Shown here: positions 7,887 through 58,921 of the stretch, piece by piece
Position numbering within the stretch: position 1 is the first letter of the stretch
Layout: the number at the start of each line of letters is the position of its first letter
Origin: Desulforapulum autotrophicum
GTDB taxonomy: Bacteria; Desulfobacterota; Desulfobacteria; Desulfobacterales; Desulfolunaceae
Length of the DNA stretch: 64,000 bases
Direction of reading: 5' to 3'
Assembly (NCBI GenBank): GCA_020723285.1
Contig: DYJE01000006.1
Coordinates: forward strand, 62,001 to 126,000
The notes under the pieces: model-generated
The model's input: only the letters and a program-made list of their open reading frames with translations
Told to the model about the DNA's origin: nothing
Databases searched by the model: none
Made by a program: the position numbers and the translations under genes

Positions 7887-8318
7887 AGACGGTCAACTGT
7901 TTTTTTTATAACCTTAACGCCCCCCGTGCCAGGGAGTGCAACCATTCCAGACTTGCGCTGTCATTCCTCAAGGCCCCCCTTACAGGCCTGATTTTCTACA
8001 TTTATTTTACCGGCCGTAATATTATAAATTTTAATCCTGTTGTAAAAAACGCTTTACAAAACAACCGTACAAAAGTATGGATAAGACCGCTAAAGGAACT
8101 TTAATCAATCCATGTTCCCATTACAGCCAAATGATTCCGTTCAACGCTCTTATAAAACTGTGCCCTGATTCATCCAAGGGAAACGTGTGTTCAAAATAGA
8201 CGAACACATTAATTATATCATTTATTTCAGTTGGTTATTTTCATTTCACGCGATCCGTCGACTCAGAATGGAATCTGAAACCTTCGGATCTCAACAAACA
8301 AGAAAAACGGAGGAGAAC
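7887..8318. other. AT-rich divergent intergenic region
   Basis: This 432-bp region lies between the operator repeats of the export operon and the duplicated lipoprotein gene. I see no credible coding frame. A weak promoter-like pair for rightward transcription is TTTACA at about 8052 followed 17 bases later by TATGGA. The start of the lipoprotein gene has AGGAG five bases ahead of its ATG. Nothing else was recognised. Confidence 0.4.
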
Positions 8319-9629
8319 ATGAAATCAAAAATTGCATTTTTAGTCACACTGGCGTCAGTCTGTTTCCTGACCGCATGCGGTTCAGTCAACAAGCCTGAGA
8401 CACCCGCACCCGCAACATCCGACTCAACCGCTCAGACCACGGATTCAACCGCGCAGAGCAAAGAAGCCTTTGCCGCCGGTTTCGTGGACGGAATCATCAA
8501 CTCCACGCTGAAAACGTCCGTGGAAGCTTCAGACGCTGAAACCATCGCTTCGGTCAAAGCCAGACAGGCGGCGTCAAAAGGTAAAGTATCCAGCGATGGC
8601 TTCACCATTCACAACGATCCGGAAAAAGGCCTGAAAATCAATATGGGCATCGGTTTTACAGCCATGAAACCCCAGATTTTCTACAAATTCTTTTTCACCG
8701 ATTATTGCGTGGCCCCCCCTGCGTCATCCGGAGATGAAACCCAGGAGGACTGCGCCTCCACCGTCACCGGCGCTTTGAAAATAGCCATCGCCTACAACGG
8801 CAGCACCAAAGATCCCCAGCTGGGACTTATCCTGAACACCGACGACAGCCTGGTATTCACCGATGCCAACGGCGGCATGATGGATGGCACCACGCTTGAT
8901 TTCAAACAGTTCACTCTGTGGTTCAGCCTTACAGACAAGAATGACCCCTTGAAATCCATGAGCGGAACCGTGGCTGTCAACGGCATGGTTATAGACCTTG
9001 CCATGTTTGAAGGCCTCGATCTTGAAGGACTCATGTCCGGCGACATCAGCGGTCTTCTTTCCAAACTCACGGCATCCCAATACCTGCCCGAACTGATGGA
9101 TTCCCTTCTGGGGTCTTTCGTGACTTCTTCCGGACAGGCCAGCGCCATTTCAACTTATGTGAAATCCCCAGCTGGCAAAGCCAAAGCCGTTCCTTCGACC
9201 ATCAAAATATTCTCCGACAGCGAAAAAGGCATCGATGTCACCATGGGATACAGCACCAAACCCCTTGGAGCGTATTTCCTGTTTGCCTTTGACGATTACA
9301 GCGCCCCCATGCCCGGTTCGGAAGAACCGTCCACCGTGGCCGTCACCGGCGATCTGAGAATCTCCATCGTATACCGCATCAAAAACCTTCAGTCGCAAAT
9401 GGGCCTGATCATCAACACCGATGAACCCCTGGTCCTCACGGACAGCGAAGGCGGATTGCTGGATGGATCCACCATGGAATTTGAAAATATGACGATGTGG
9501 TTCAGCCTGAAGGATAAAAACGATCCTTTGAAAGAAATGAGCGGAAAAGCCATTCTGAACGGCATGGAACTTGATCTGGCCATGTTCGAGTCGCTGGACA
9601 TTCTGTCCCTGCTCTCACAGTTCAAATAA
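8319..9629 (+). CDS. Lipoprotein with an internal tandem duplication
   Basis: A 436-residue predicted lipoprotein of no family I recognise. The ATG at 8319 follows GGAGGAG and gives MKSKIAFLVTLASVCFLTAC, a signal peptide ending in a lipobox (LTAC, Cys at 20). A Thr/Ser/Pro/Ala-rich spacer follows. The body consists of two related units of roughly 170-190 residues. Each opens with a variant of DPEKGLKINMGIGF or SEKGIDVTMGYS and later has SLTDKNDPLKSMSGTVAVNG or SLKDKNDPLKEMSGKAILNG, ending with a Leu-rich DLAMFE segment. The duplication suggests a two-lobed beta-rich envelope protein. It stands alone between two regulatory regions. An in-frame upstream start at 8187 would bury the signal peptide and is less likely. 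Confidence 0.8.
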   Translation: MKSKIAFLVTLASVCFLTACGSVNKPETPAPATSDSTAQTTDSTAQSKEAFAAGFVDGIINSTLKTSVEASDAETIASVKARQAASKGKVSSDGFTIHNDPEKGLKINMGIGFTAMKPQIFYKFFFTDYCVAPPASSGDETQEDCASTVTGALKIAIAYNGSTKDPQLGLILNTDDSLVFTDANGGMMDGTTLDFKQFTLWFSLTDKNDPLKSMSGTVAVNGMVIDLAMFEGLDLEGLMSGDISGLLSKLTASQYLPELMDSLLGSFVTSSGQASAISTYVKSPAGKAKAVPSTIKIFSDSEKGIDVTMGYSTKPLGAYFLFAFDDYSAPMPGSEEPSTVAVTGDLRISIVYRIKNLQSQMGLIINTDEPLVLTDSEGGLLDGSTMEFENMTMWFSLKDKNDPLKEMSGKAILNGMELDLAMFESLDILSLLSQFK

Positions 9630-12601: not shown

Positions 12602-12846
12602 TTTGACGAAAACATTTCGGTTAATTATTTCTGAAACTCTAACATCAGTTTTCGTTTCATTATTTAATCAACATTCAAACAAATTTATTTATTGAATTAT
12701 TCAATGGTTAGTAATACGTTCTTAATATTTTCACACAGTAAATAATACACATATAAAATAACATAAGAAACTCTATGACAGCTTGATAGTTTTTTAAGTG
12801 GCTTTTTTTATTATTAAAATATTATTTAAACAAGGAGAGGGATGAT

Positions 12847-15519
12847 ATGAGGTTGAGGTTCCAAGGCGGCTGTATCCGTGCAATTCTGATTGTTTTATCC
12901 CTGTTGTTCATTACACCTGTCAATGCAACGGAAACCAGAGGGCTTAGAGTTATCGCCAAAGAAGTGACCACTGGCGAATCCAAAGAGGTTAAACTATACA
13001 ACAAAAGCTATGCTGTCATTATCGGGATTGACTCGTATTCACAGCTATCCATGACGGAGCAGTTGACCTATGCGGTCAGGGACGCTAAAGGGGTCGAAAG
13101 CGTTCTGCGAAGCAATTATAAATTTGACAAAATCATCACCCTATACAACCAAGGGGCGACCAAAGACAGCATCCTTAAGGTTCTGATGGAAGATCTCCCC
13201 AATGAAATGACCGAAGAAGACTCCCTTTTCGTATTCTGGGCCGGTCATGGAAACCAGGAAACAACCCGCACAGGCGACCTTGGATATCTGGTCCCCCATG
13301 ACGGAAATCCCAGTAAACTCCAGAGCAACATCTCCATGACCGCTCTCAAGGAAGACATTTCAAAAAAACTTCCGGCAAAACATGTATTTTACGTCATGGA
13401 TGCCTGTTACAGTGGCCTTCTCACCGTAACCCGCGGTTTGGAGCAAGAAACGAAACGTGATGTGGCATACCTTCAGGAAATAACCAAAGAGCCGGTTCGT
13501 CAGGTTCTTACAGCCGGTGGAAAAAACCAGAAAGTATTGGATGGGGGTCCAAAAGGTCATTCGGTATTTACAGGACGCCTGATCGAACAACTCGAAAATG
13601 CAGAAGATTTTGTCACTGCCAACGAATTGCAAGCCAAAGTATCCGAAAAAGTCTTTTCAGATGCCAGTTCCATGAGCGCCACACAGACACCGAGTTACGG
13701 GAAGCTTTACGGCTTGGGGGATTTCGTGTTTGTTCCATCTCTTGAAAAGAAAGTGGAGGATATTCAGGAAAAAATCGACGCTTTTCAGGCAGAAATGAAC
13801 AAACTCAACAAAATGGAACAGGACGCAGCCAACGCCATGAACGAGGAATTACGTCGTCAGGCTGAGATCGAAAAAAACCAGATTCTGGCAAAAATCGCTG
13901 CCGAAAAACTCCGCCAGCAGACCCTGGATGAGCAGAAAAAGAAGCGTGAAGCGGAACAAAAAGAGGAGGAACGACGACTTCTTGAAGCAACCGCCCAGAA
14001 AAAAAAAAACGAAGAACGCATCGCCAGACTCTCAAGGGAAGTGGAAGAAAAACGTAAAGCCATGGGAGACACGAGCCTTTCAAGCCTTTCCCCCCAGAGC
14101 ACCCTTGACGAAATGCAGTCCATCGACCGAAAAATCAAGCAGATTAAGCAGCAGTTCAGAACTGAACTGAAGGACGGCATCCTTCAGGTGATCAACCGTT
14201 TCAACCCCCGCTATCTGAAACTGGCTGACGCCGTCAAAGATGAATTCGAAACGGAAAAAGAATTCCTGTTACGTCGGGATAAGGAAAGATTTGCCCTTGA
14301 CAAAGAGCAGGCAGATGAATTCGACGCCATACAGACCCGTTTAGAAGATGAATACAAGAAACAGATCACACCCTTTATTGAAACTTTAAAAAAACTGTCC
14401 GGTAAGGAATTTCATATCGCTTCAGATAATCTGTTGATTGAACTGGGGACCTATGACAGCACATTCAACGTCTATCCCATAACCATCAAATCAAAAAACC
14501 CTCTTGACATCTATCCAGAAGAAACGGCATCTATTCAACCTGCCGGGTATTCTGAAACCCAGAATAATGCCGGATCACCTTCTTTACGTGAACCGACAAG
14601 ACGTATCCTGCTGGCCGCCAACGGCCGAATCCCCATTCCAAGAGACGAGGCACGGGAGTTCAAGCAGCATTTTCTTAACAACATGCTGAGAGCAGAACTC
14701 CGTGGAAATTTTGAAACACCTGAAAATTTCACCATCGCCGAAGCGAAAATTATAGATGACGCCACGGTGAAATCTTACGATCTGTTTACATCCACATTTG
14801 TGGATCTCGGCAATGGCACGATTTACGACACCACCACGAAACTAATATGGTGTAAAAATGCAAATCCAAAAGGAGAACGCTTAAACATTTCAGCAACCAT
14901 AAAATATATCAACTACCTGAATAAAACAGCATACCTTGGTTTCAGAGACTGGAGGTTGCCCAACAGCAGGGAATTACTCTCACTGTATCAGCACGGCAAA
15001 CAAGCAGGATTTGGTGGCGACAAATCCATCATTAAATTTTTAGAGCATGCCGGATTCGAAAATTTGAAAGAAGACAGACAGGATTACATATCAAGTTTGA
15101 CTGGACGCGATTTTTTCATAGATGTCAAAATTAATGAAGGGAAAAAAGACGACTTAGATTCTGGCGATAGCAGCAATATATGGCCCGTTCGATCAGGAAG
15201 GTTGAGTAAGGATAAAAAAAACTATGACCCTGAACTGAATGGCATATGGTTTGGCCCTGATATAAAACTATCAATTGATAGTGGAACATATGTATTTGAA
15301 TCCCCTTCGTATAATTGCATGGGTGAATTTATCATTAAAAGTATTAAAAACGGTAAAATTATATTTCAAGAAAATTTATCTGGTCGAATTGGTAATGGAA
15401 GATATGCTGAAGATGTTGGCGAATTGATAAAAATAGGACCTGATAAAATAAAGATTGTCTGGTTTGATGAAAAAGGGGGGCAGAAAGATTTGAAAGAATT
15501 AACAAAAGAAAAAAAATAG
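12847..15519 (+). CDS. Secreted caspase-fold (C14) protein with coiled coil and Lcl-like domain
   Basis: An 890-residue exported protein. It has a signal peptide (about 1-27, ending VNAT) and a caspase-fold domain from about 50 to 290 with catalytic His134 in FWAGHGNQE and Cys187 in VMDACYSGL. A long charged coiled coil (about 295-420, many Glu/Lys/Arg) follows. A conserved-looking stalk comes next, then an Lcl/DUF1566-like domain from about 650 (GNGTIYDTTTKLIWCKNA, later FRDWRLPNSREL). A final segment of about 90 residues is visibly AT-richer in codon use. The dyad is intact, so it may be an active protease with Lys/Arg or Asp specificity unknown. AAGGAGAGGG precedes the ATG. The gene stands alone between AT-rich flanks and ends near a toxin-antitoxin remnant, which suggests an acquired block. 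Confidence 0.87.
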   Translation: MRLRFQGGCIRAILIVLSLLFITPVNATETRGLRVIAKEVTTGESKEVKLYNKSYAVIIGIDSYSQLSMTEQLTYAVRDAKGVESVLRSNYKFDKIITLYNQGATKDSILKVLMEDLPNEMTEEDSLFVFWAGHGNQETTRTGDLGYLVPHDGNPSKLQSNISMTALKEDISKKLPAKHVFYVMDACYSGLLTVTRGLEQETKRDVAYLQEITKEPVRQVLTAGGKNQKVLDGGPKGHSVFTGRLIEQLENAEDFVTANELQAKVSEKVFSDASSMSATQTPSYGKLYGLGDFVFVPSLEKKVEDIQEKIDAFQAEMNKLNKMEQDAANAMNEELRRQAEIEKNQILAKIAAEKLRQQTLDEQKKKREAEQKEEERRLLEATAQKKKNEERIARLSREVEEKRKAMGDTSLSSLSPQSTLDEMQSIDRKIKQIKQQFRTELKDGILQVINRFNPRYLKLADAVKDEFETEKEFLLRRDKERFALDKEQADEFDAIQTRLEDEYKKQITPFIETLKKLSGKEFHIASDNLLIELGTYDSTFNVYPITIKSKNPLDIYPEETASIQPAGYSETQNNAGSPSLREPTRRILLAANGRIPIPRDEAREFKQHFLNNMLRAELRGNFETPENFTIAEAKIIDDATVKSYDLFTSTFVDLGNGTIYDTTTKLIWCKNANPKGERLNISATIKYINYLNKTAYLGFRDWRLPNSRELLSLYQHGKQAGFGGDKSIIKFLEHAGFENLKEDRQDYISSLTGRDFFIDVKINEGKKDDLDSGDSSNIWPVRSGRLSKDKKNYDPELNGIWFGPDIKLSIDSGTYVFESPSYNCMGEFIIKSIKNGKIIFQENLSGRIGNGRYAEDVGELIKIGPDKIKIVWFDEKGGQKDLKELTKEKK

Positions 15520-15580: not shown

Positions 15581-15615
15581 GTCACAAGCTACCGTTTGAA
15601 TCGGTAGCTTGTGAC
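15581..15615 (-). terminator. Perfect 14-bp stem intrinsic terminator
   Basis: GTCACAAGCTACCG and its exact reverse complement flank a seven-base loop. Read on the minus strand the stem is followed by TTTTTCC, so it should stop leftward transcription coming from the ligase/toxin-remnant side. The stem lies about 60 bases after the caspase gene stop and may also cap that mRNA. Confidence 0.8.
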
Positions 15616-15625
15616 CCTGCGTCGT

Positions 15626-15853
15626 TTATGGGAAATAACGGTAAATCTCATTTCGATGTAAAAGCCTCACAAAACAGACCGTTTCATTTTCCACAATCAA
15701 TCCAAGGCGATAATCTCCCGTTCGAATTCTGAACGCGTTGTCATTGGCTTTGAGTTTTTTGAAATGCGCGATATCCTGCAAAGTCTTGGCAGCTTGACTA
15801 TTAGAAATCTCATTTTCGGCATCTATGGCACGACCACTGCCGATATCTTCAAG
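15626..15853 (-). pseudogene. RelE/ParE-type toxin remnant lacking its N-terminus
   Basis: A minus-strand frame with no start codon begins just after a stop at 15854-15856 and reads about 75 residues. It contains QAAKTLQDIAHFKKLK, RIRTGDYRLGLIVENE and RLLHRNEIYRYFP before TAA. The sequence RTGDYRLG followed by HRNEIYRYFP is the conserved core and C-terminus of RelE-superfamily toxins. Intact members are about 85-95 residues with a start such as MYKV or MSWKI; that part is absent. The break lies next to a short antitoxin-like frame, so the module is probably dead. Confidence 0.75.
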
Positions 15854-15857
15854 TTAT

Positions 15858-15962
15858 TCAATAGGATAGGTGGTGGCAGAATATATTCTTCTCCGATATC
15901 ATTTCCATAATCAAGGACGCGACGACTTGTTTCAAAACATTCTCATTGACTTCGATCTTCAT
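15858..15962 (-). CDS. 34-aa ORF, probable antitoxin remnant
   Basis: A short frame with a good ribosome site (AAGAGGAAAGACG before ATG) encodes MKIEVNENVLKQVVASLIME and ends after 34 residues. Position directly before the broken RelE-type toxin, in the same direction, suggests the antitoxin gene of that module. The C-terminal residues (FCHHLSY) look like an out-of-frame tail, so a deletion or frameshift may have joined it to lost sequence. It could still be translated. Confidence 0.5.
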   Translation of the reverse strand: MKIEVNENVLKQVVASLIMEMISEKNIFCHHLSY

Positions 15963-16026
15963 CGTCTTTCCTCTTAAATAAGAAACCTGCTTTGAAATGA
16001 ATAATTCAAAGCGTTGTTCGACCGTT

Positions 16027-49511: not shown

Positions 49512-52061
49512 TTATAACCAGTTATTGATAAGGATGAATGGAGACCAGTAACCCGGATGGCTGTATTCCGTATCTTCGATAAGGGTTGTTTCAGCTCTTT
49601 TCAAAGCGACTGATCGAGACACGCCTTTTTTCCCTAACTCGGTGTAAAACTTCGACACAAGCTTCGACGCGGCCTGGTCATCCACGGCCCAGAGGGTTGC
49701 CAAAGCGCTCCGCGCACCGATTTTAACTGCGATCCCGGCCAGACCCAGGGCTGCCTGTTCGTTGCCCGTGGCTGTTTCGCATGCACTCAATGTCAGAAGT
49801 TCCAGGGGTTTATCGCGAAACCTGTAAAGCCCGACGCAACGGGTCAGATCGTTTAATGTCATTTTTTTGTCAGAGGCAAGTATGAAACTATCTTCGATAC
49901 GGTCAAAAAATTTCCCGTGTGAAGCGATATGCACCACATTGTATGATTCATCTCTGAGCGCTTTTTCAAAGTTGTCAGTGGAGAAGGAATCGTCTAACAG
50001 CACCTTTCCCTTAAAAAGATCTGAAATGGCTTTTACCTCGGATTGAACACCGGGAAGCGGCTCATATCCTTCGCGGGGCTTGGAAATACCCACGGCAAGG
50101 ACATGAACGCCGTCAGGATCGATGGGCTTGGGTTTGGTCATTTTAAGACCGGGCGTCACTGCAACGGCGTAAGAAGATATCAGAAAAGATACTCCATCAT
50201 GAAGAGCCGCTATCGGAATGGTGTTCAGCACACCGTCAGGGACAAAAACCAGGGTTTCCGGTTTGAAAAATTTCAATTCGTTTTCAAGAGGCCTAATCAG
50301 ATAATTGTAAAGCTTCTGTGAAGGTCCAAGATAAAGATCGCCTCCCCTTTGACCGACCCTAAGCCTGAATTCTTCAGCGGTTTGAATGATTTCATCTGCT
50401 TTAACCGGAACAACATAGTGTTTAAATACAACATTTCCGTCATTTGATTTGTTTTTATCATCATAGCTTCCTTTCTGTGAAAAGGTCGCTATGATCTCAA
50501 GCCTTTCGGGCAGTATGACAGGATAGATCACAACGGCATTATCCAGTATTTCATCCACGTCAGTCATTTCAACGTTCGCCGCTCCCAGGCAATCGTCGTT
50601 GAAATATTCACGGAGTTCAAAAACCTTCCTTTTTTCAACGGCATCCCTTGCTGCCCTTAAAATATTCTGGTCCTTATCACCGTCTGTATGTTCGTAAAAA
50701 CTCAAAAGGGCATCCACATAACCGGAATAAATCTCCGCCTCTTTTCTTCGGAGTTCTGCGCGAGATCTCCCATAACAGTTTTCAAATTCAGCTCTTACTG
50801 ACTCCAGTGTGGAAATGGCGTTTTTGTAGGATATGACGGCGTCTGAAAATCGGCCCTGTTTTTTTAAAATGTCTGCGTCTTGACCTTGCCAACGGTAAAG
50901 CGATTCAGGAGCGTTCCCATTTTCTGATAGCATGATCGCTTCATAGGTATGATCACCCGCCTGTTTCAAATTTCCGGAACGAAATTCAAATAACCCGAGA
51001 TATCCATTGGCGTAAGATCCAAGGAGCGGGTTTTTCAGTTCTACAGACATGTCCGAAGCTGCTTTGAGCAAATCTGACGCCTGTCCATGAAGGCTATCGG
51101 CTTTGTCCGGAAGATTGACGGAAAGTTCCATCAAACCAGCTGCCATGTTGATATATGCCGTGCAAGCATGCCGAGACGTGCCGATGAATTTCAGTCTTGA
51201 TCCTGCTTCGTTCAGTTCATCATCCGCACTTTTAAAAAACTGCCTGGCTTTCTGCCTGGCTTCCGCAGACGGGGTTCCCTTGCTTTTATGAACAAGAACC
51301 GTTGCACGATTGATCGATGCAAACCGCGACCCTCTTTGTTCTTCTTCAACATTTACAAGACCGTCTTCAATATGGGTAACGCCCTGAGAGTCTGGAGCAT
51401 ACCCATTCTTCATCATAATCATTTTGCCCTGACGGATCTGAACGAGTGCCAAGTTAATTCTGGCGATGACTGCTTGAACCGCCGATTTATCCAAAGATAC
51501 AGAAGATCGATAAGCATCAACGGCTTTTTCATAGTCTCCGGATGTTCCGTAAAGGTTTCCAAGATTGTTATATATCGATGCCATCCGTCCATGGTTTTCA
51601 TTTATTTTTGCCATATCCAGAGCTTTTTCGAGGTTTTTTCTTGCCTCTTCGAATTTACCGGAACTGTGTAAAAGATTTCCTTTCAATTCAAGCATTCTTG
51701 TCTCAAGATCTCCATCGCCTGTTTCCTTTAACTGATTTTCAGCTTCCCCAAGCCGTGAGAAGGCCATTTCAATTCTTCCCATGGAAAGGCAGACTTGTGC
51801 TGAACGCACCAAGGCATCGGACAGACCTTTTACATTATTTTTAAGTTTATGTTCAGCCACGACTTTTTCAAACATATCGAACGCTTCTTTGTCCTTGCCC
51901 CTTTCATATGCAAGAATTCCTTCATTCATTAAAGCCGAAGGGTCAGCGGTTGAAACAACCGTTATGGACTCTTTATCAGGATGAAAGGATATGCAGGAAA
52001 CAACAGTACATAGAAATGCACAAACCACTAACAAACCGGTATATTTTCCATTTGATTTCAT
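49512..52061 (-). CDS. TPR-CHAT protease lipoprotein
   Basis: An 849-residue lipoprotein: YTGLLVVCAFLCTVVSC gives lipobox VVSC. Tetratricopeptide repeats occupy about 40-480 (KAVDAYRSSVSLDKS, RWQGQDADILKKQGRFSDAV and others). The C-terminal CHAT domain (about 580-849) is a caspase-fold protease with His715 in VHIASHGKFF and Cys761 in LTLSACETATGNEQ, plus the closing ATLWAVDDQAASKLVSKFY and SHPGYWSPFILINNWL. The dyad is intact. TPR-CHAT proteins near TpsA/TpsB are common in cyanobacteria and some deltaproteobacteria; a function has not been shown as far as I know. It lies 60 bases after TpsB, so it is likely co-translated with the secretion pair. Confidence 0.9.
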   Translation of the reverse strand: MKSNGKYTGLLVVCAFLCTVVSCISFHPDKESITVVSTADPSALMNEGILAYERGKDKEAFDMFEKVVAEHKLKNNVKGLSDALVRSAQVCLSMGRIEMAFSRLGEAENQLKETGDGDLETRMLELKGNLLHSSGKFEEARKNLEKALDMAKINENHGRMASIYNNLGNLYGTSGDYEKAVDAYRSSVSLDKSAVQAVIARINLALVQIRQGKMIMMKNGYAPDSQGVTHIEDGLVNVEEEQRGSRFASINRATVLVHKSKGTPSAEARQKARQFFKSADDELNEAGSRLKFIGTSRHACTAYINMAAGLMELSVNLPDKADSLHGQASDLLKAASDMSVELKNPLLGSYANGYLGLFEFRSGNLKQAGDHTYEAIMLSENGNAPESLYRWQGQDADILKKQGRFSDAVISYKNAISTLESVRAEFENCYGRSRAELRRKEAEIYSGYVDALLSFYEHTDGDKDQNILRAARDAVEKRKVFELREYFNDDCLGAANVEMTDVDEILDNAVVIYPVILPERLEIIATFSQKGSYDDKNKSNDGNVVFKHYVVPVKADEIIQTAEEFRLRVGQRGGDLYLGPSQKLYNYLIRPLENELKFFKPETLVFVPDGVLNTIPIAALHDGVSFLISSYAVAVTPGLKMTKPKPIDPDGVHVLAVGISKPREGYEPLPGVQSEVKAISDLFKGKVLLDDSFSTDNFEKALRDESYNVVHIASHGKFFDRIEDSFILASDKKMTLNDLTRCVGLYRFRDKPLELLTLSACETATGNEQAALGLAGIAVKIGARSALATLWAVDDQAASKLVSKFYTELGKKGVSRSVALKRAETTLIEDTEYSHPGYWSPFILINNWL

Positions 52062-52121
52062 GACGACCTGTTCCACCTCGACCGGTATGAACCGGAATAT
52101 CTGTATATAACGTTATTCATG

Positions 52122-53891
52122 TCAGAATGCGGAAACCGATAATTGAAAATGGAACCCGTCATCCTGGAGATCGCTTCCATCCGTATCCACATCTTTCAGA
52201 GGATGACCCCAGTAGAATTCAAGTTCCGTTGTCACCGGAAATGGTTCCGACATCATGGTCAGCGCCCATCTCAACCCGAGACCTATGCTGTAAATGGCCT
52301 TTGGGTCGGGATCGTTATCTTTTCTGTTCCATCCCCTTCCAAAATCAAAGAAAGGTGCCAGCTGAAAATAATCGGCCCATACCCTTTTTCGTACAAGGGG
52401 AATCCGTGTTTCCATCGAAGCGATTACTCCGTTATCGCTTACAAGCTGGTTTTCACGGTAACCTCGGACCGAATAGCGTCCGCCAATGGGGATCTGTTCA
52501 AGGGAGAGAAGCCTGTCATCGGCAATCTGAATGTCCGTTTTAAGCATATTCTGAATTTCCAAAGATGAAAAAATCCCCACCCATTGAGCCTGACCCAGCC
52601 ATGAGAAAAAACGGGCGTCCGGTTCTTTGCCACCGTTCATGGTCGCATCGAAAGCGTCGATACCCCAGGAAAAACGTGACTGAAGGGCTGCGACATTCTC
52701 ACGAGTTCTGTAAATGTACTCCTGAAAAAAACGAATGGCGTCCACCTCCGACACACCGTTCACGGAGCCCTTTGAAAATGAATAGGGTTCACCGAGAAGT
52801 GTTGTTTTATTTCTCAGGCGCTCCCCAGAAATTCCCAAAGCGCATTCCCTGTTCGGCGTTCTAAAGAAAGGCTGCCTGACCTTCACTTCATAAACGGACG
52901 ATGTGCTCGTGATGTCAAGGCTCTGGAACGGTTCTTCAACAATGTCGAAATCGTTGTTTCTGTAACGGAATCCAAGTTCGGTATCCCAGGTTGTGACAGG
53001 CATGAGAAAAGAGGCGTCAACAAGGGGGTCAAGCCCATCAGAACGGCCGTATGTCAAACTGACCACGTCGCCGAAGCCTGTGGCGCTTTTATGCGTCAGA
53101 GTCACAAGCCCCCTTTCGGAGCCGACGGACGGTGACTGATAGTTGTTGAAGGAAGCCCAGACATTCCATGGCGAACGTTCTTCCACCTTGATATCCAGTT
53201 CGCTTTTACCGGGATCCATTCCGGGTTTCAGCTCGGCATGAATCCTTTTCACCAGGTCGTTTTGTTGGAGCATCTGCAGGCATTGCCCCAGCACGTTGAC
53301 GTTCAAAGGTTTTTCTGCGGCTTTTTCGATTCGGTTTATATAATACCGATCCCTCAACCGCTCGTTTCCTGATACCGTGACATTGGACAGCGCGCCTTCA
53401 ACCACCATGTATGTCACTTTACCGTCAGACACAGCCTGATCCGGCAGAACTGCTCCGGAGTTGACGTATCCGTTCTGAATATAGTGGACTGTGATTTTCC
53501 TTCGAATTTCTTCAAGATCGACATGGGACAGTTTTTTATTTTCGTATGGTTTTGTTATTTCAGAAAGTTTTTCTTTCGAAAAAACTGTACTGCCAATAAT
53601 TTCAATTTTTTTCACAAAAACCGAGATTCCGTTTTTTATATCTTCACCCTTGTTACCATCATTCATCTCGACTGCAGGCGAGGGACTGACGATTTCAGGC
53701 TTCGGAATCATTTCATCTTTATCTTTCATAAGAGATTCCTGCCTGTCGCCCGATCTCAAAGTCGGATCGATGGAGACCGGGTTGTCAAGACAGTAAACAC
53801 CCGAGGTGAAAGAAAAAAAGAACAGAAGAACCGCATGGAACCACACCGCTATACGAAAAAAACGAGCTCGATAAACCACGACCAACTCCAT
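52122..53891 (-). CDS. TpsB outer-membrane transporter (FhaC/ShlB family)
   Basis: Sixteen-strand beta-barrel that exports the adjacent TpsA. 589 residues with signal peptide (VLLFFFSFTSGVYC), two POTRA domains (from about 90; VKKIEIIGSTVFSKEKLSEI and VVEGALSNVTVSGNERLRDR) and the ShlB barrel. The VRGY motif in GGRYSVRGYRENQLVSDNGV is the conserved L6 loop needed for secretion. It ends in ...LSVSAF, the usual aromatic C-terminus recognised by BAM. Order TpsA-TpsB-CHAT suggests one operon. Confidence 0.95.
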   Translation of the reverse strand: MELVVVYRARFFRIAVWFHAVLLFFFSFTSGVYCLDNPVSIDPTLRSGDRQESLMKDKDEMIPKPEIVSPSPAVEMNDGNKGEDIKNGISVFVKKIEIIGSTVFSKEKLSEITKPYENKKLSHVDLEEIRRKITVHYIQNGYVNSGAVLPDQAVSDGKVTYMVVEGALSNVTVSGNERLRDRYYINRIEKAAEKPLNVNVLGQCLQMLQQNDLVKRIHAELKPGMDPGKSELDIKVEERSPWNVWASFNNYQSPSVGSERGLVTLTHKSATGFGDVVSLTYGRSDGLDPLVDASFLMPVTTWDTELGFRYRNNDFDIVEEPFQSLDITSTSSVYEVKVRQPFFRTPNRECALGISGERLRNKTTLLGEPYSFSKGSVNGVSEVDAIRFFQEYIYRTRENVAALQSRFSWGIDAFDATMNGGKEPDARFFSWLGQAQWVGIFSSLEIQNMLKTDIQIADDRLLSLEQIPIGGRYSVRGYRENQLVSDNGVIASMETRIPLVRKRVWADYFQLAPFFDFGRGWNRKDNDPDPKAIYSIGLGLRWALTMMSEPFPVTTELEFYWGHPLKDVDTDGSDLQDDGFHFQLSVSAF

Positions 53892-54038
53892 CTAATCTTT
53901 CATCATCTGGCCGGTTTCATTCACTGACCGGCTTAGCCCCATTCCCCAATCGTTCAAACACCGTACGTCAATCTGTTTGACTCAAAGCTGTTTCCATAAC
54001 GTTTCAGCAGGACCTCCACGCTCTATTTGGATCATATC

Positions 54039-57000
54039 TTATGGACTCATCTGAAGAGCTCCGGGTTCCATAGGCAGGGAATCCCTCCCTTTCACGATGA
54101 AACTTCCGTAATCCCCACCTTTGACCCGTGCTTCACAGGGCTCTTTCAACAAATTTCCTGCGTCCTGAAATTCATTTGAAAGCGGTTTCAAACCGCCGTC
54201 AAGGTCACTGAAAGACGCCTGAATCAGTACCTCACCGTCAATGCCCATATCCGATGATGCATCGAGCACACTTGACGGATCGGCAAGAAAGACTTCCGAT
54301 AAAACACTGATGCGGCCTCCGTCCCCTTGAACGGCCCGTGCCGCAATGTCTGTTCTTTCAAGAACGATGAATCCGGATTCAAGTTCCAGATTCCCTCCCT
54401 GGGTCCCCTGGCCGCCACCGACACTTGCGAGTATTTCACTGTCGATCAGCCGCATAAGATTCTTCGAGATAATGCGAACATTTCCACCGTCCGCCTGATC
54501 TGCGTCAGCTGTAATTTTTGAACCGACACTGAAAATATCAGACAACGAAACGATTGAAATCTCTCCGCCATTCCCGGCACCCGTACTTTTAGCCGATATT
54601 TCCGAACCATTTCCAAGGGAAAGGTACCCGGCTGTCAGATCAATATCACCGCCCTTTCCCGAACCTTCAGCACTTGTGGATATGGCGGAATGATTGGCAA
54701 GAAAAAGATTGCCTATGATCTCCAGCCGTATGGAACCCGAGTCTCCATCTCCGCCGCTTCCGGCGAAAACCCCGGTTTTATCCACGGCTTTCGTTGTTCC
54801 GTCGGAGAAGCTTCCATCGATTGTAAATTCATCCGCCGTAATAAAAATATCTCCACCTTTTCCCGAACTTGTCGCTTTTGTGGAAATCTCGGCATGGTTA
54901 TACAGACCAAGCTTACCGATATTCAATTCGATGGTTCCCGCGTCACCGGATCCCGTGGAAGTCGCAAAAAGGCCGGTCAGCCCGGCATCAGCACCGTCGA
55001 TGGTGAGGATGTCCGCCGTGATGGTTAGATTTCCGCCTTGGCCACTCCCAGTGGTTTCACAGGTTACGCCACCACCGCCTTCAATGGTGACCGTTTCAGC
55101 CTCAATCGTGATATCACCAGCGATACCGTCCCCGCCTGAAATACTCTCCATGGTGCAACCATTCATGACAACACTACCGGCCATGACATTCACAGTTCCG
55201 GCATTGGCATAACCGTACGTTGAAGCTGCGATGAACGCATTTCCTTCCATCAGAACCGATTCAACGTCATGCAGCTTGATGTTTCCGCCATGTGCGGAAA
55301 CCGTCGTTTTATCACCGCACATACTGCTTATCGCGGCAGGTTTGGCGGGATCGTCATTTGTTCCATTCAGAACAACGCGAGTTGCGGTGATGTCCATATC
55401 ACCGGCCACACCGGAACCGTAGGCGTTAGCGTTAATGGAGGCATCCCCCGTCAATGTCAAAGTGCCTGATAATTGAACAGCAATATTCCCCGAATCACCC
55501 TCATGGTTGCTTCCGGAAGAAATTTTGGTAGAACGTCCATCGGCAGCTCCTTCGATTGTCATATCATCAGCGGTAATTGCAATATCTCCACCCTTCCCCG
55601 ATCCATTGGATAACGCCATGATATTTGCCTGGTTTTTCATTACAATTTGTCCACCTTCTATGGTTATATTGCCACCATTTCCAGTTCCCCTGGATGCTGA
55701 ATCAATCATGGAATTGTCAAGAACAAGAGATCCGGTCATGATTTCGATATTTCCGGAATTCCCCGTATCCAGGGTGCTTGCAGAAACAACCGACTCATTC
55801 ACGGCTTCAATGGATTCCGCATGAATGATGATACCAGCTGAATCGCCTGAAAAAGCTGAAGAATCAATCATTCCCTTATCCATAAAGACAGAACCTGCGG
55901 TCAATGAGATGAGGCCTGTTAAGCCGCTGCCTTTCGAACCGTTTGTGATGTTTCCACCATCATTGATTGTGGCGGTTCCACAGGTTATGGAAATATCTCC
56001 GGCCGCAGACGAACCGGTTGTCAGTGAAAAAATCCGTGCTCTGTCCTCGATATCCGATAAGCCATGAACATACAAAGCGTCATCGATGGTGAGATGAATC
56101 GATCCGCAAGCACCGGAACCTGTGGTCGATGTGTTGATGGAAGCTCCGTTCTCAATCTCCAAGGAATGGGCATCGACATTTATATCCCCTCCTTTTCCGG
56201 ACTGTTGAGATTCAGCCGCAATCATTGCTGAATCGCTTATCAACAGATCATTTGTAGAAATACTTATGTCAGCGCCGTCTCCTGTACCCATGGCGTAGCT
56301 TAAAATGGAGCTTCGATTTGTAACCGCAATGTGATCCGCTCCGATATGTAACCCCCCTGAATGTTCAGAACCCGCTGACTGACTGAATATAAATCCTCCC
56401 GAATCAAATACAAAATCAGACGTTGTCAGACTGATTTCACCTGCTGCGGCCGCGTTATTGGTTATTGAAAAAATTTCTGGGCCTATGTTCAAAGCGCCCG
56501 ATCCATCCAGTGTGATGGAATCTTCCGCCTTAACCGTGATATTCCCGCAATCTCCCGCTCCTGTCCCGGAAGATGAAACCCTTATCACTGAATCATTTTC
56601 AAGCTTCAATGTCTTTGAATCCAAGTTGATATCACCGCATGTTCCCTGGCCAAGGGTATACGCCCTGATCGTGGAAGAATTTTTCATCGATAGGCCATTA
56701 TCGGACTCAATGAAGATGGAACCGCCGTTTCCACCCGTGTAAGTCAGTGCCTCCACAGTTGACAATGTGTTTAATGACATGTCACCCGTTAAATCGATCC
56801 CAATATCCCCTCCATTTCCCGCTGACCAGGAAACGCTTCGGATTTTCGAAGAATCATTCAATGTCAGTTCTCCGGCATTAATGGTGACGCTGCCCCCCTT
56901 GCCGGTATTCCATGATTCAGCCACGATTGACGCCGTGTTGCTCAGAGACAGAGTCCCCGTGCTATGAATCGCTATATTTCCGCCAGAACCGGAACCATTT

Positions 57001-58655
57001 GTTTTTGAAGTCAGTTTTGAACTGTCTTTCAGCGACATATCCCCGGATTCAATAACAATGTCTCCACCCGCGCAGGTGTCATTGGCGGTTGTAGAAATAT
57101 ACGATGATCCTGAAAGATCCACGTCACCGTTCCCCGTAATGGTGATATCACCGCCTGTATCGGAAGTGTAAGCCGTTGAAGATATAAAAGACGTAGCACC
57201 AAGAATCAGAGAATCATAACAGGTGATAGCCAGATCACCACCGTTCCCGTCATTAATGGATGAACTACTGCACCGTGAACCATTATTAAGCAGCATGGTG
57301 CCTGCCTTGATTGATACATCTCCACCATTTCCGGAATAATTTGCAATGGAAGAAATATAGGATGATCCATCAAGATTGATGGATTCCTTTCCTGTTATTG
57401 AAAGATATCCTCCGTTTCCTTCCGCTAGTGTCGACGTTGTTATTCTCGAACTGCCATTGAGCGAAATATTATTCGAACAAATGATTAGAGACCCGGCATC
57501 CCCAGTGCCGGACACCGAAGTGGAGATATAGGACCCCCCGGCCAAAGAAACGCCGTCAGTTCCCGTGACACTCAGATCTCCTCCCCAACCGGACGAATAG
57601 CTTGCCGTCCTGATATATGAAGCACCCGTGAGATCAATAGTGTCCGCATGAATGCGTCCACCACCGCAACGACCCTGTTCATAGGCGTAGGTTTCGACTG
57701 CACTTCCGTTTGAGAGCTGAATCAAGGAAGCGGCTTCCATGTCCAGAGAAAGTCCGGAGGCATCGGAAGAAGAATAGCCCCCTGTGTATACTGCTGTTTT
57801 ATCTATTTCAATTTTACCACCACGGATAATCACCGAACCATCGGGATAAGAACCTGAATAATCCTCGGATGAGACATAGGCGTTAGACAAAGTGACGACA
57901 CCTGTTTCACCGGCAGCATCCGTGAGGACGGAAGGAGACTGGAGAGAAATATCACCAGCGTTACCAACACTCACGATCTGGACTTTGCCCCCATCAACCC
58001 AGACCTGAGCCTGCCGGTAGTTCCCTGTGACATCAATATCACCCCCGACAAAGGACAGTGTTTCGCCTGAAGAGCCAAATATATGGGCGCTCTCAATGGA
58101 TATGGGGCCCGGATTGTCCGTAAGGAATCCAAATGCCTCGGGTTTGGCGATACTCAGTACGCTTGCCTGAACCGGATTGGCGAAAAAGACTGAGCCGTCC
58201 TCGAATTTCAGACTGTCCCCCGTGCTCACATGGAACGAACCGGGGATATTGAGGGTGGCGTATGGACCGAACATCACGCCATATGGATTCAGCAGAAACA
58301 CGTTCGCCCCGTTGATAGTCGAAGCCAGTTCACCGTTGATCGTGGAGGGTAAACCGCCTGTCACCCGCCCAATGATGTTTTCAATAGAAGCCGCTCCGCT
58401 GAACGTTGCACTCTCGCCCACATTGACGTTAAACTCTTTAAAACTATGAAAGAGGTTCGTCCCCCGGACCTGGCCGAGATCATCGGTAATGGAATAAGCA
58501 GGACCTGTGATGTTGACTTCCGAACCCAGGGTGCCGTCTGTGGAAATCTGAGCAGAGCATGTTAAAACCGAAATCAGATAACACACAAGAAACCGGGTTG
58601 CCGCAGACAATACTCGACAACAGCGATAACGCTTTTTTACACTTAAATTTTTCAT
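54039..58655 (-). CDS. TpsA filamentous haemagglutinin-like exoprotein
   Basis: A 1538-residue secreted protein from the ATG at 58655, preceded by GGGGAGAG. A signal peptide (to about residue 36) is followed by the TPS secretion domain (about 37-300) with LLNPYGVMFGPYATLNIPGS; NPYG is the family's NPNG/NPYG motif. The rest is a long right-handed beta-helix with about 40 repeats around G-x-G-G-D-I-x-I. There is no polymorphic toxin domain at the end. Instead the last 35 residues hold a single Cys and GSFIVKGRDSLPMEPGALQ, like the closing S-F-x-V-x-G-R-x-x-L-P-x-x-P motif of cyanobacterial TpsA proteins. That motif may serve for anchoring or processing, and the neighbouring proteases are candidates for acting there. 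Probable role: adhesin or surface fibre. Confidence 0.93.
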   Translation of the reverse strand: MKNLSVKKRYRCCRVLSAATRFLVCYLISVLTCSAQISTDGTLGSEVNITGPAYSITDDLGQVRGTNLFHSFKEFNVNVGESATFSGAASIENIIGRVTGGLPSTINGELASTINGANVFLLNPYGVMFGPYATLNIPGSFHVSTGDSLKFEDGSVFFANPVQASVLSIAKPEAFGFLTDNPGPISIESAHIFGSSGETLSFVGGDIDVTGNYRQAQVWVDGGKVQIVSVGNAGDISLQSPSVLTDAAGETGVVTLSNAYVSSEDYSGSYPDGSVIIRGGKIEIDKTAVYTGGYSSSDASGLSLDMEAASLIQLSNGSAVETYAYEQGRCGGGRIHADTIDLTGASYIRTASYSSGWGGDLSVTGTDGVSLAGGSYISTSVSGTGDAGSLIICSNNISLNGSSRITTSTLAEGNGGYLSITGKESINLDGSSYISSIANYSGNGGDVSIKAGTMLLNNGSRCSSSSINDGNGGDLAITCYDSLILGATSFISSTAYTSDTGGDITITGNGDVDLSGSSYISTTANDTCAGGDIVIESGDMSLKDSSKLTSKTNGSGSGGNIAIHSTGTLSLSNTASIVAESWNTGKGGSVTINAGELTLNDSSKIRSVSWSAGNGGDIGIDLTGDMSLNTLSTVEALTYTGGNGGSIFIESDNGLSMKNSSTIRAYTLGQGTCGDINLDSKTLKLENDSVIRVSSSGTGAGDCGNITVKAEDSITLDGSGALNIGPEIFSITNNAAAAGEISLTTSDFVFDSGGFIFSQSAGSEHSGGLHIGADHIAVTNRSSILSYAMGTGDGADISISTNDLLISDSAMIAAESQQSGKGGDINVDAHSLEIENGASINTSTTGSGACGSIHLTIDDALYVHGLSDIEDRARIFSLTTGSSAAGDISITCGTATINDGGNITNGSKGSGLTGLISLTAGSVFMDKGMIDSSAFSGDSAGIIIHAESIEAVNESVVSASTLDTGNSGNIEIMTGSLVLDNSMIDSASRGTGNGGNITIEGGQIVMKNQANIMALSNGSGKGGDIAITADDMTIEGAADGRSTKISSGSNHEGDSGNIAVQLSGTLTLTGDASINANAYGSGVAGDMDITATRVVLNGTNDDPAKPAAISSMCGDKTTVSAHGGNIKLHDVESVLMEGNAFIAASTYGYANAGTVNVMAGSVVMNGCTMESISGGDGIAGDITIEAETVTIEGGGGVTCETTGSGQGGNLTITADILTIDGADAGLTGLFATSTGSGDAGTIELNIGKLGLYNHAEISTKATSSGKGGDIFITADEFTIDGSFSDGTTKAVDKTGVFAGSGGDGDSGSIRLEIIGNLFLANHSAISTSAEGSGKGGDIDLTAGYLSLGNGSEISAKSTGAGNGGEISIVSLSDIFSVGSKITADADQADGGNVRIISKNLMRLIDSEILASVGGGQGTQGGNLELESGFIVLERTDIAARAVQGDGGRISVLSEVFLADPSSVLDASSDMGIDGEVLIQASFSDLDGGLKPLSNEFQDAGNLLKEPCEARVKGGDYGSFIVKGRDSLPMEPGALQMSP

Positions 58656-58921
58656 TATTCTCTCCCCACCGGACAAAATTTTACTTTATATATAAAAAAA
58701 ATTTATCTTTGCAAATGAGTTTTTTCGTATTATCAAAGAACCATCAGGAAATTGTCAGAACATATTTTAACAAACTGTATTTATTGATAAATTAAAACAA
58801 TCCGTTTCGAACATGGTTGATTATGTGTTGTTTTAAATACTTATTATTCTATCGATGGGTATGATTGTATGAAACATAAACCGGTATCGATCACCGCCGT
58901 TTTTTTATCTCCGGTAGTACT

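Follow-up and report, generated by a model that had tools for sequence, protein, structure and literature searches.

The role of bacterial caspases is an open question, usually approached with cytoplasmic proteins of cell death or defence in mind. A gene in the 64,000-nucleotide stretch of Desulforapulum autotrophicum DNA analyzed here (the window) encodes a caspase-fold protein that begins with a predicted export signal and carries an Lcl_C (DUF1566) domain toward its C terminus. This locus raises the question of what a caspase could be doing outside the cytoplasm and whether the domains to which it is joined direct its activity.

Gene, domain organization, and export signal

The open reading frame at 12847-15519 (+) starts with ATG, lies nine bases downstream of an AAGGAG ribosome-binding site (12832-12837), and encodes a protein of 890 amino acids (Table 1). 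Inspection of the sequence and its hydropathy reveals a basic N terminus, a hydrophobic stretch at residues 12 to 23, and a V-N-A cleavage-type site after Ala27, and the protein is therefore predicted to leave the cytoplasm via a signal peptide. Of 13 relatives, 12 have a comparable hydrophobic N terminus, which is of the lipoprotein type in L058a and L058b. No clear signal peptide is evident in the open reading frame of L032. The preliminary description of this DNA was accurate regarding the reading frame, the C14 and Lcl_C domains (Pfam domain search), and the residues His134 and Cys187 (alignment). Its prediction of export is in keeping with the hydrophobic core and the V-N-A site, which are similar in most relatives. 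Two parts of the protein were absent from it, namely, a domain at residues ~411 to 656 and a C-terminal module of ~105 residues (~783 to 890).

The gap preceding the gene contains no open reading frame of 90 or more amino acids, and a promoter-like match at 12730-12759 within it does not rise above chance. On the 3' side, about 500 bases with a RelE-like remnant are followed by a DNA ligase-like gene on the opposite strand. The remnant, of the RelE/ParE toxin type, is decayed and broken over several frames (15600-15990, -).

Table 1 Features of the caspase-Lcl_C gene and its upstream region (positions in the window)
Feature	Position	Strand	Basis
A+T-rich intergenic region, 245 bases, after hybrid histidine kinase gene	12602..12846	+	sequence
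Whole gene, 890 aa: caspase with predicted export signal, charged helix, middle domain, Lcl_C, and C-terminal module	12847..15519	+	ORF, Pfam
Predicted signal peptide, aa 1-27, V-N-A cleavage-type site before Thr28	12847..12927	+	sequence, hydropathy
C14 caspase domain, p20 and p10-like half, aa 50-297	12994..13737	+	Pfam, AlphaFold model, structural matches
Asp79, aligned with metacaspase S1-pocket Asp (TbMCA2 Asp95)	13081..13083	+	invariance, alignment
Catalytic His134	13246..13248	+	invariant
Asp185 (second S1-type Asp) and catalytic Cys187	13399..13407	+	invariant
Arg196, p20/p10 linker, proposed self-cleavage site	13432..13434	+	alignment, model loop
Long charged helix, aa 298-410	13738..14076	+	model helices, moderate confidence
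Middle domain of no described family, aa 411-656, with a helical hairpin followed by beta strands; motif FETxxE[FY]	14077..14814	+	alignment, model
Lcl_C/DUF1566 domain, aa 657-782	14815..15192	+	Pfam; PMC11162425
C-terminal module, aa 783-890, no family	15193..15516	+	weak likeness to last module of L006

Caspase domain

Residues 54 to 284 match Peptidase_C14 (PF00656) in Pfam at 1.7e-17, with 64.3 bits against a cut-off of 21.4. His134 resides in an AGHG motif and Cys187 in DACYSG, and neither these two residues nor Asp79 and Asp185 vary among 13 family members or among 13 divergent p20 domains. Asp79 aligns with the DA of the Yca1 motif GCINDA. By sequence alignment and motif, Asp79 and Asp185 are the equivalents of Asp95 and Asp211 of Trypanosoma brucei metacaspase 2 (TbMCA2), which line its S1 pocket (PMC4357240) and accommodate basic residues (PMC6426788). 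The presence of this acidic pair suggests that the enzyme would cut after Arg or Lys.

The AlphaFold model of residues 49 to 296, built from 13 divergent sequences, has a pLDDT of 87.9 and a pTM of 0.89 and matches caspases, MALT1, and metacaspases at Z scores of 20 to 23. The top match is the paracaspase MALT1 (Z = 23.0, rmsd = 2.6, 203 residues aligned); plant metacaspase 9 and Geobacter GSU0716 (3bij) are matched at 22.8 and 21.0, respectively. As the matches span the entire domain, both the p20 and the p10-like halves are present. Taken together, the Pfam model, the catalytic dyad, and the fold identify the protein as a C14 caspase. Arg196 is located in the linker eight or nine residues past the catalytic cysteine, is itself invariant and followed by glycine, alanine, or serine in all 13 members, and sits in the sole disordered loop of the model (pLDDT <50), a setting that would be consistent with self-cleavage at this residue.

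Comparing the protein with characterized enzymes, MALT1 is the closest solved structure by Z score over the entire caspase domain, but it is an intracellular signalling protein with other partner domains and only 15% identity. The prokaryotic metacaspases (orthocaspases) share the catalytic His/Cys, the acidic S1 pair, the fold, and the habit of C-terminal accessory fusions, whereas the window protein adds an export signal, a long charged helix, an undescribed middle domain, and Lcl_C. A survey of prokaryotic metacaspases noted N-terminal helices that are possibly signal peptides, as well as FGE-sulfatase fusions in 33 of 671 proteins (PMC3501461). DUF1566 is not mentioned in that survey or in a second one (PMC4933709).

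Helix, middle domain, and C-terminal tip

The segment that follows the caspase domain (residues ~298 to 410) consists of 63% E/K/R/Q/D/N and is modelled as helices at residues 299 to 329 and 333 to 407. It had been described as a coiled coil. A long charged helix is indeed present, but the heptad signal of its hydrophobic residues in the window protein does not exceed that of shuffles (z = 1.0), which makes a single helix as likely as a coiled coil.

The middle domain has no relative among Pfam families or PDB sequences and represents a new family to describe. A PDB match to prefoldin (E = 0.054) was dismissed as a coiled-coil coincidence. In the full-length AlphaFold model, the middle domain reaches about 80 pLDDT; the model as a whole, with a mean of 53.8, is too poor outside the caspase domain and the helices to display the spatial relation of tip and protease and was set aside. 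Its list of structural matches is dominated by the caspase domain and is thus uninformative on the fold of the middle domain.

The Lcl_C assignment is secure. The match to PF07603 covers the full profile (1-117) at 2e-15, with 57.5 bits against a cut-off of 34.9, and residues 657 to 782 are a true Lcl_C domain. The Legionella Lcl_C domain adopts a C-type-lectin-like fold, forms a trimer, and binds sulphated glycosaminoglycans, with trimerization and glycosaminoglycan binding known for this one member of the family (PMC11162425). In Legionella pneumophila Lcl, as in the window protein with its predicted signal peptide, a long stalk separates the export signal from a DUF1566 domain toward the C terminus; however, the stalk of Lcl is collagen-like, and it has no protease. 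The last module of the window protein resembles the last module of L006 weakly (E = 0.034), which is suggestive at most. Elsewhere in the same genome, a 1055-aa open frame (G000 contig C75:4236-6905, -) encodes five Lcl_C domains.

Exchange of the tip among relatives

Full-length relatives occur in Deltaproteobacteria, Geobacter, Desulfuromonadales, and one Pseudomonadota metagenome assembly, with more in related genomes, and the architecture recurs in at least 12 relatives. The caspase domain, the charged helix, and a middle domain with the FETxxE[FY] motif are common to all, and the tips vary. A single Lcl_C tip is carried by the window protein, L031, L034, and three tandem copies in L058, and in L030 and L033 the Lcl_C tip is present in two stretches. 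The tip is of the FGE-sulfatase type in L032, L039, and L048 and of the F5/8 type C in L006. The C-type-lectin fold has been described as including FGE domains as one of its subtypes (PMC10907252). In the p20 tree, the FGE-bearing L032 occupies a strongly supported position within the Lcl group, and the FGE label requires three changes. Mean pairwise identity is 58% in the caspase domain, 28% in the helix, and 23% in the middle domain. The protease was thus conserved during evolution while its tip was swapped among Lcl_C, FGE-sulfatase, and F5/8 domains, a pattern that suggests that the protease is steered by the extracytoplasmic ligand of the tip. Moreover, the middle domain and FGE tip also occur together in proteins that lack the caspase (L040, L049, L050-L052, and L054) and have signal-peptide-like N termini, indicating that the pieces have been mixed in both directions.

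These caspase-free proteins also bear on whether the protein is an adhesin whose caspase serves its own maturation or release, either freeing the protein from the envelope or fixing it there. Their existence implies that maturation of the tip needs no protease. In addition, a cut in the p20/p10 linker would not detach the tip from the protease, provided that p20 and p10 remain bound to each other as they do in caspases. Lcl being an adhesin domain in Legionella (PMC11162425), the suitability of Arg196 as a self-cleavage site, and the lipoprotein-type signals of L058a and L058b all fit such a role, which we nevertheless consider very unlikely.

The preliminary description had raised the possibility that this domain order is widespread and already characterized. 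The order does recur in relatives, but the family with its middle domain is rare, being present in 3 of the 395 genomes from the phylum and in 9 of the 291 from the order, with a single copy in the genome of the window, and our literature search found no paper describing it. Viral contigs yielded only two distant caspase relatives, and no plasmid record covers 80% of the protein, the listed ones reaching no more than 37%.

Proposed mechanism

The reading that we favour, tentatively and with a little less than even confidence, is that of an extracytoplasmic Arg/Lys endopeptidase of the metacaspase/paracaspase type, which proximity or self-cleavage would activate and the lectin-fold tip would direct to its target. 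The signal peptide would take the protein to the periplasm or cell surface, where the Lcl_C tip may bind a glycan or protein ligand and thereby position the enzyme. Protease and tip would be kept apart by the charged helix and the middle domain, which might also multimerize the protein, although a multimeric stalk is unsupported by the sequence because the helix has no clear heptad pattern. Ligand binding could crowd several copies together, upon which the caspase domains would cut their own p20/p10 linkers at Arg196. The activated enzyme would then attack envelope or extracellular proteins in its vicinity. A bolder version, in which these proteins constitute a family of "receptor caspases," with a conserved Arg/Lys caspase, a new linker domain, and exchangeable, fast-diverging lectin-fold tips, all switched by ligand outside the cytoplasm, appears unlikely. 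If ligand binding does switch the protease on, it would constitute a new bacterial route from surface recognition to proteolysis.

Predicted export of caspases and the genomic context of the gene

An exported caspase had been regarded as unusual, a view that finds no support in this group. By hydropathy and sequence, each of the four C14 proteins of the genome looks exported, and a simple hydropathy rule predicts export for 23 of the 29 best-matching C14 proteins that were sampled from related genomes. The significance of the window protein is therefore moderate, and the aspects that stand out are the pairing of a conserved protease with swapped tips and the new middle domain. Within an order whose caspases mostly have predicted export signals, the members of this family couple a conserved caspase with lectin-fold tips that can be swapped.

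The Pfam search did bear out the presence of three caspase-fold proteins within 50 kb. Besides the protein described here, these are P0002 (58922-61030; C14 at 2.4e-20 with a weak DUF4384 match), which has a signal peptide by inspection, and P0003 (52076-49512; TPR-CHAT at 6.2e-54), which is the sole CHAT protein of the genome and has a lipoprotein-type signal (VVSC) by inspection. P0003 is part of a two-partner secretion cluster (49512-58676, -) together with a 1545-aa TpsA-type protein and a TpsB with POTRA. Each of the three represents a separate family (caspase-Lcl, caspase with weak DUF4384, and CHAT). With four C14 genes in 5.44 Mb, we estimate that a pair within 46 kb is expected by chance at ~0.1, so that the clustering means little, and a functional island of the three is not supported.

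Across the loci of the family, no conserved neighbour was found except in L030 and L033, where a gene for a lytic transglycosylase (SLT) lies nearby, as does one for a further exported caspase, which in L030 contains CARDB. The window copy stands alone beside a hybrid histidine kinase gene and housekeeping genes. This context, along with predicted export being the norm for C14 proteins in the order, would suit an ordinary periplasmic protease for quality control or cell-wall remodelling, which would trim envelope proteins as the cell grows or is stressed and whose tip would do no more than anchor it to peptidoglycan or glycans. However, the transglycosylase link is confined to those two loci and is absent from the window, L031, L032, and L006. 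A housekeeping role moreover predicts a wide and even spread, in contrast to the scarcity of the middle domain in the phylum. We judge this explanation to be unlikely. Also in the window, the gene at 8187-9629 (+) encodes a predicted lipoprotein that matches nothing in Pfam and contains two internal repeats, each of ~130 aa.

Comparison with conflict systems

An alternative reading is that of an envelope-level receptor for conflict or defence, whose tip would sense a phage, predator, or rival at the surface and whose caspase would trigger damage, in a manner resembling STAND or EACC1 systems but outside the cytoplasm. In the EACC1-associated caspase system ("System 4"), a constant N-terminal caspase is likewise joined to many alternative C termini and is membrane-associated (PMC7159879), and the PADLOC "caspase" model matches the window protein at 4.3e-20. 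However, EACC1 caspases act at the inner membrane from inside, whereas the window protein is predicted to be exported. Membership in that system was rejected, as the NCBIfam model NF047832 scores 65.7 bits against a cut-off of 140 and no EACC1 gene lies immediately upstream. The window locus also has no defence-island neighbours.

Variable proteins of diversity-generating retroelements (DGRs) offer a second parallel. In cyanobacteria, retroelements hypermutate proteins that combine a caspase with a C-terminal domain of C-type-lectin fold (PMC7517822). Those proteins are mostly cytosolic. The window gene is accompanied by neither a nearby reverse transcriptase nor a template repeat; the DNA of its Lcl_C region has no second copy, and the gene was rejected as a DGR target. 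The only reverse transcriptase of the genome is broken, lies on another contig, and is of the group II intron type by inspection. We treat the likeness to the EACC1-caspase and DGR systems as leads only and the role as a conflict receptor as quite improbable.

Tandem arrays of exported caspases in G661 and G015 are the remaining observation in keeping with such a receptor. In G015 (L056:3757-12677 and L057), the arrays encode exported proteins with a caspase and a charged helix; the five array genes of L056 are consecutive, one of them lacking the motif used to flag caspases. Among seven G015 copies, the p20 regions are 87% identical, whereas the last 150 residues share 28% identity.
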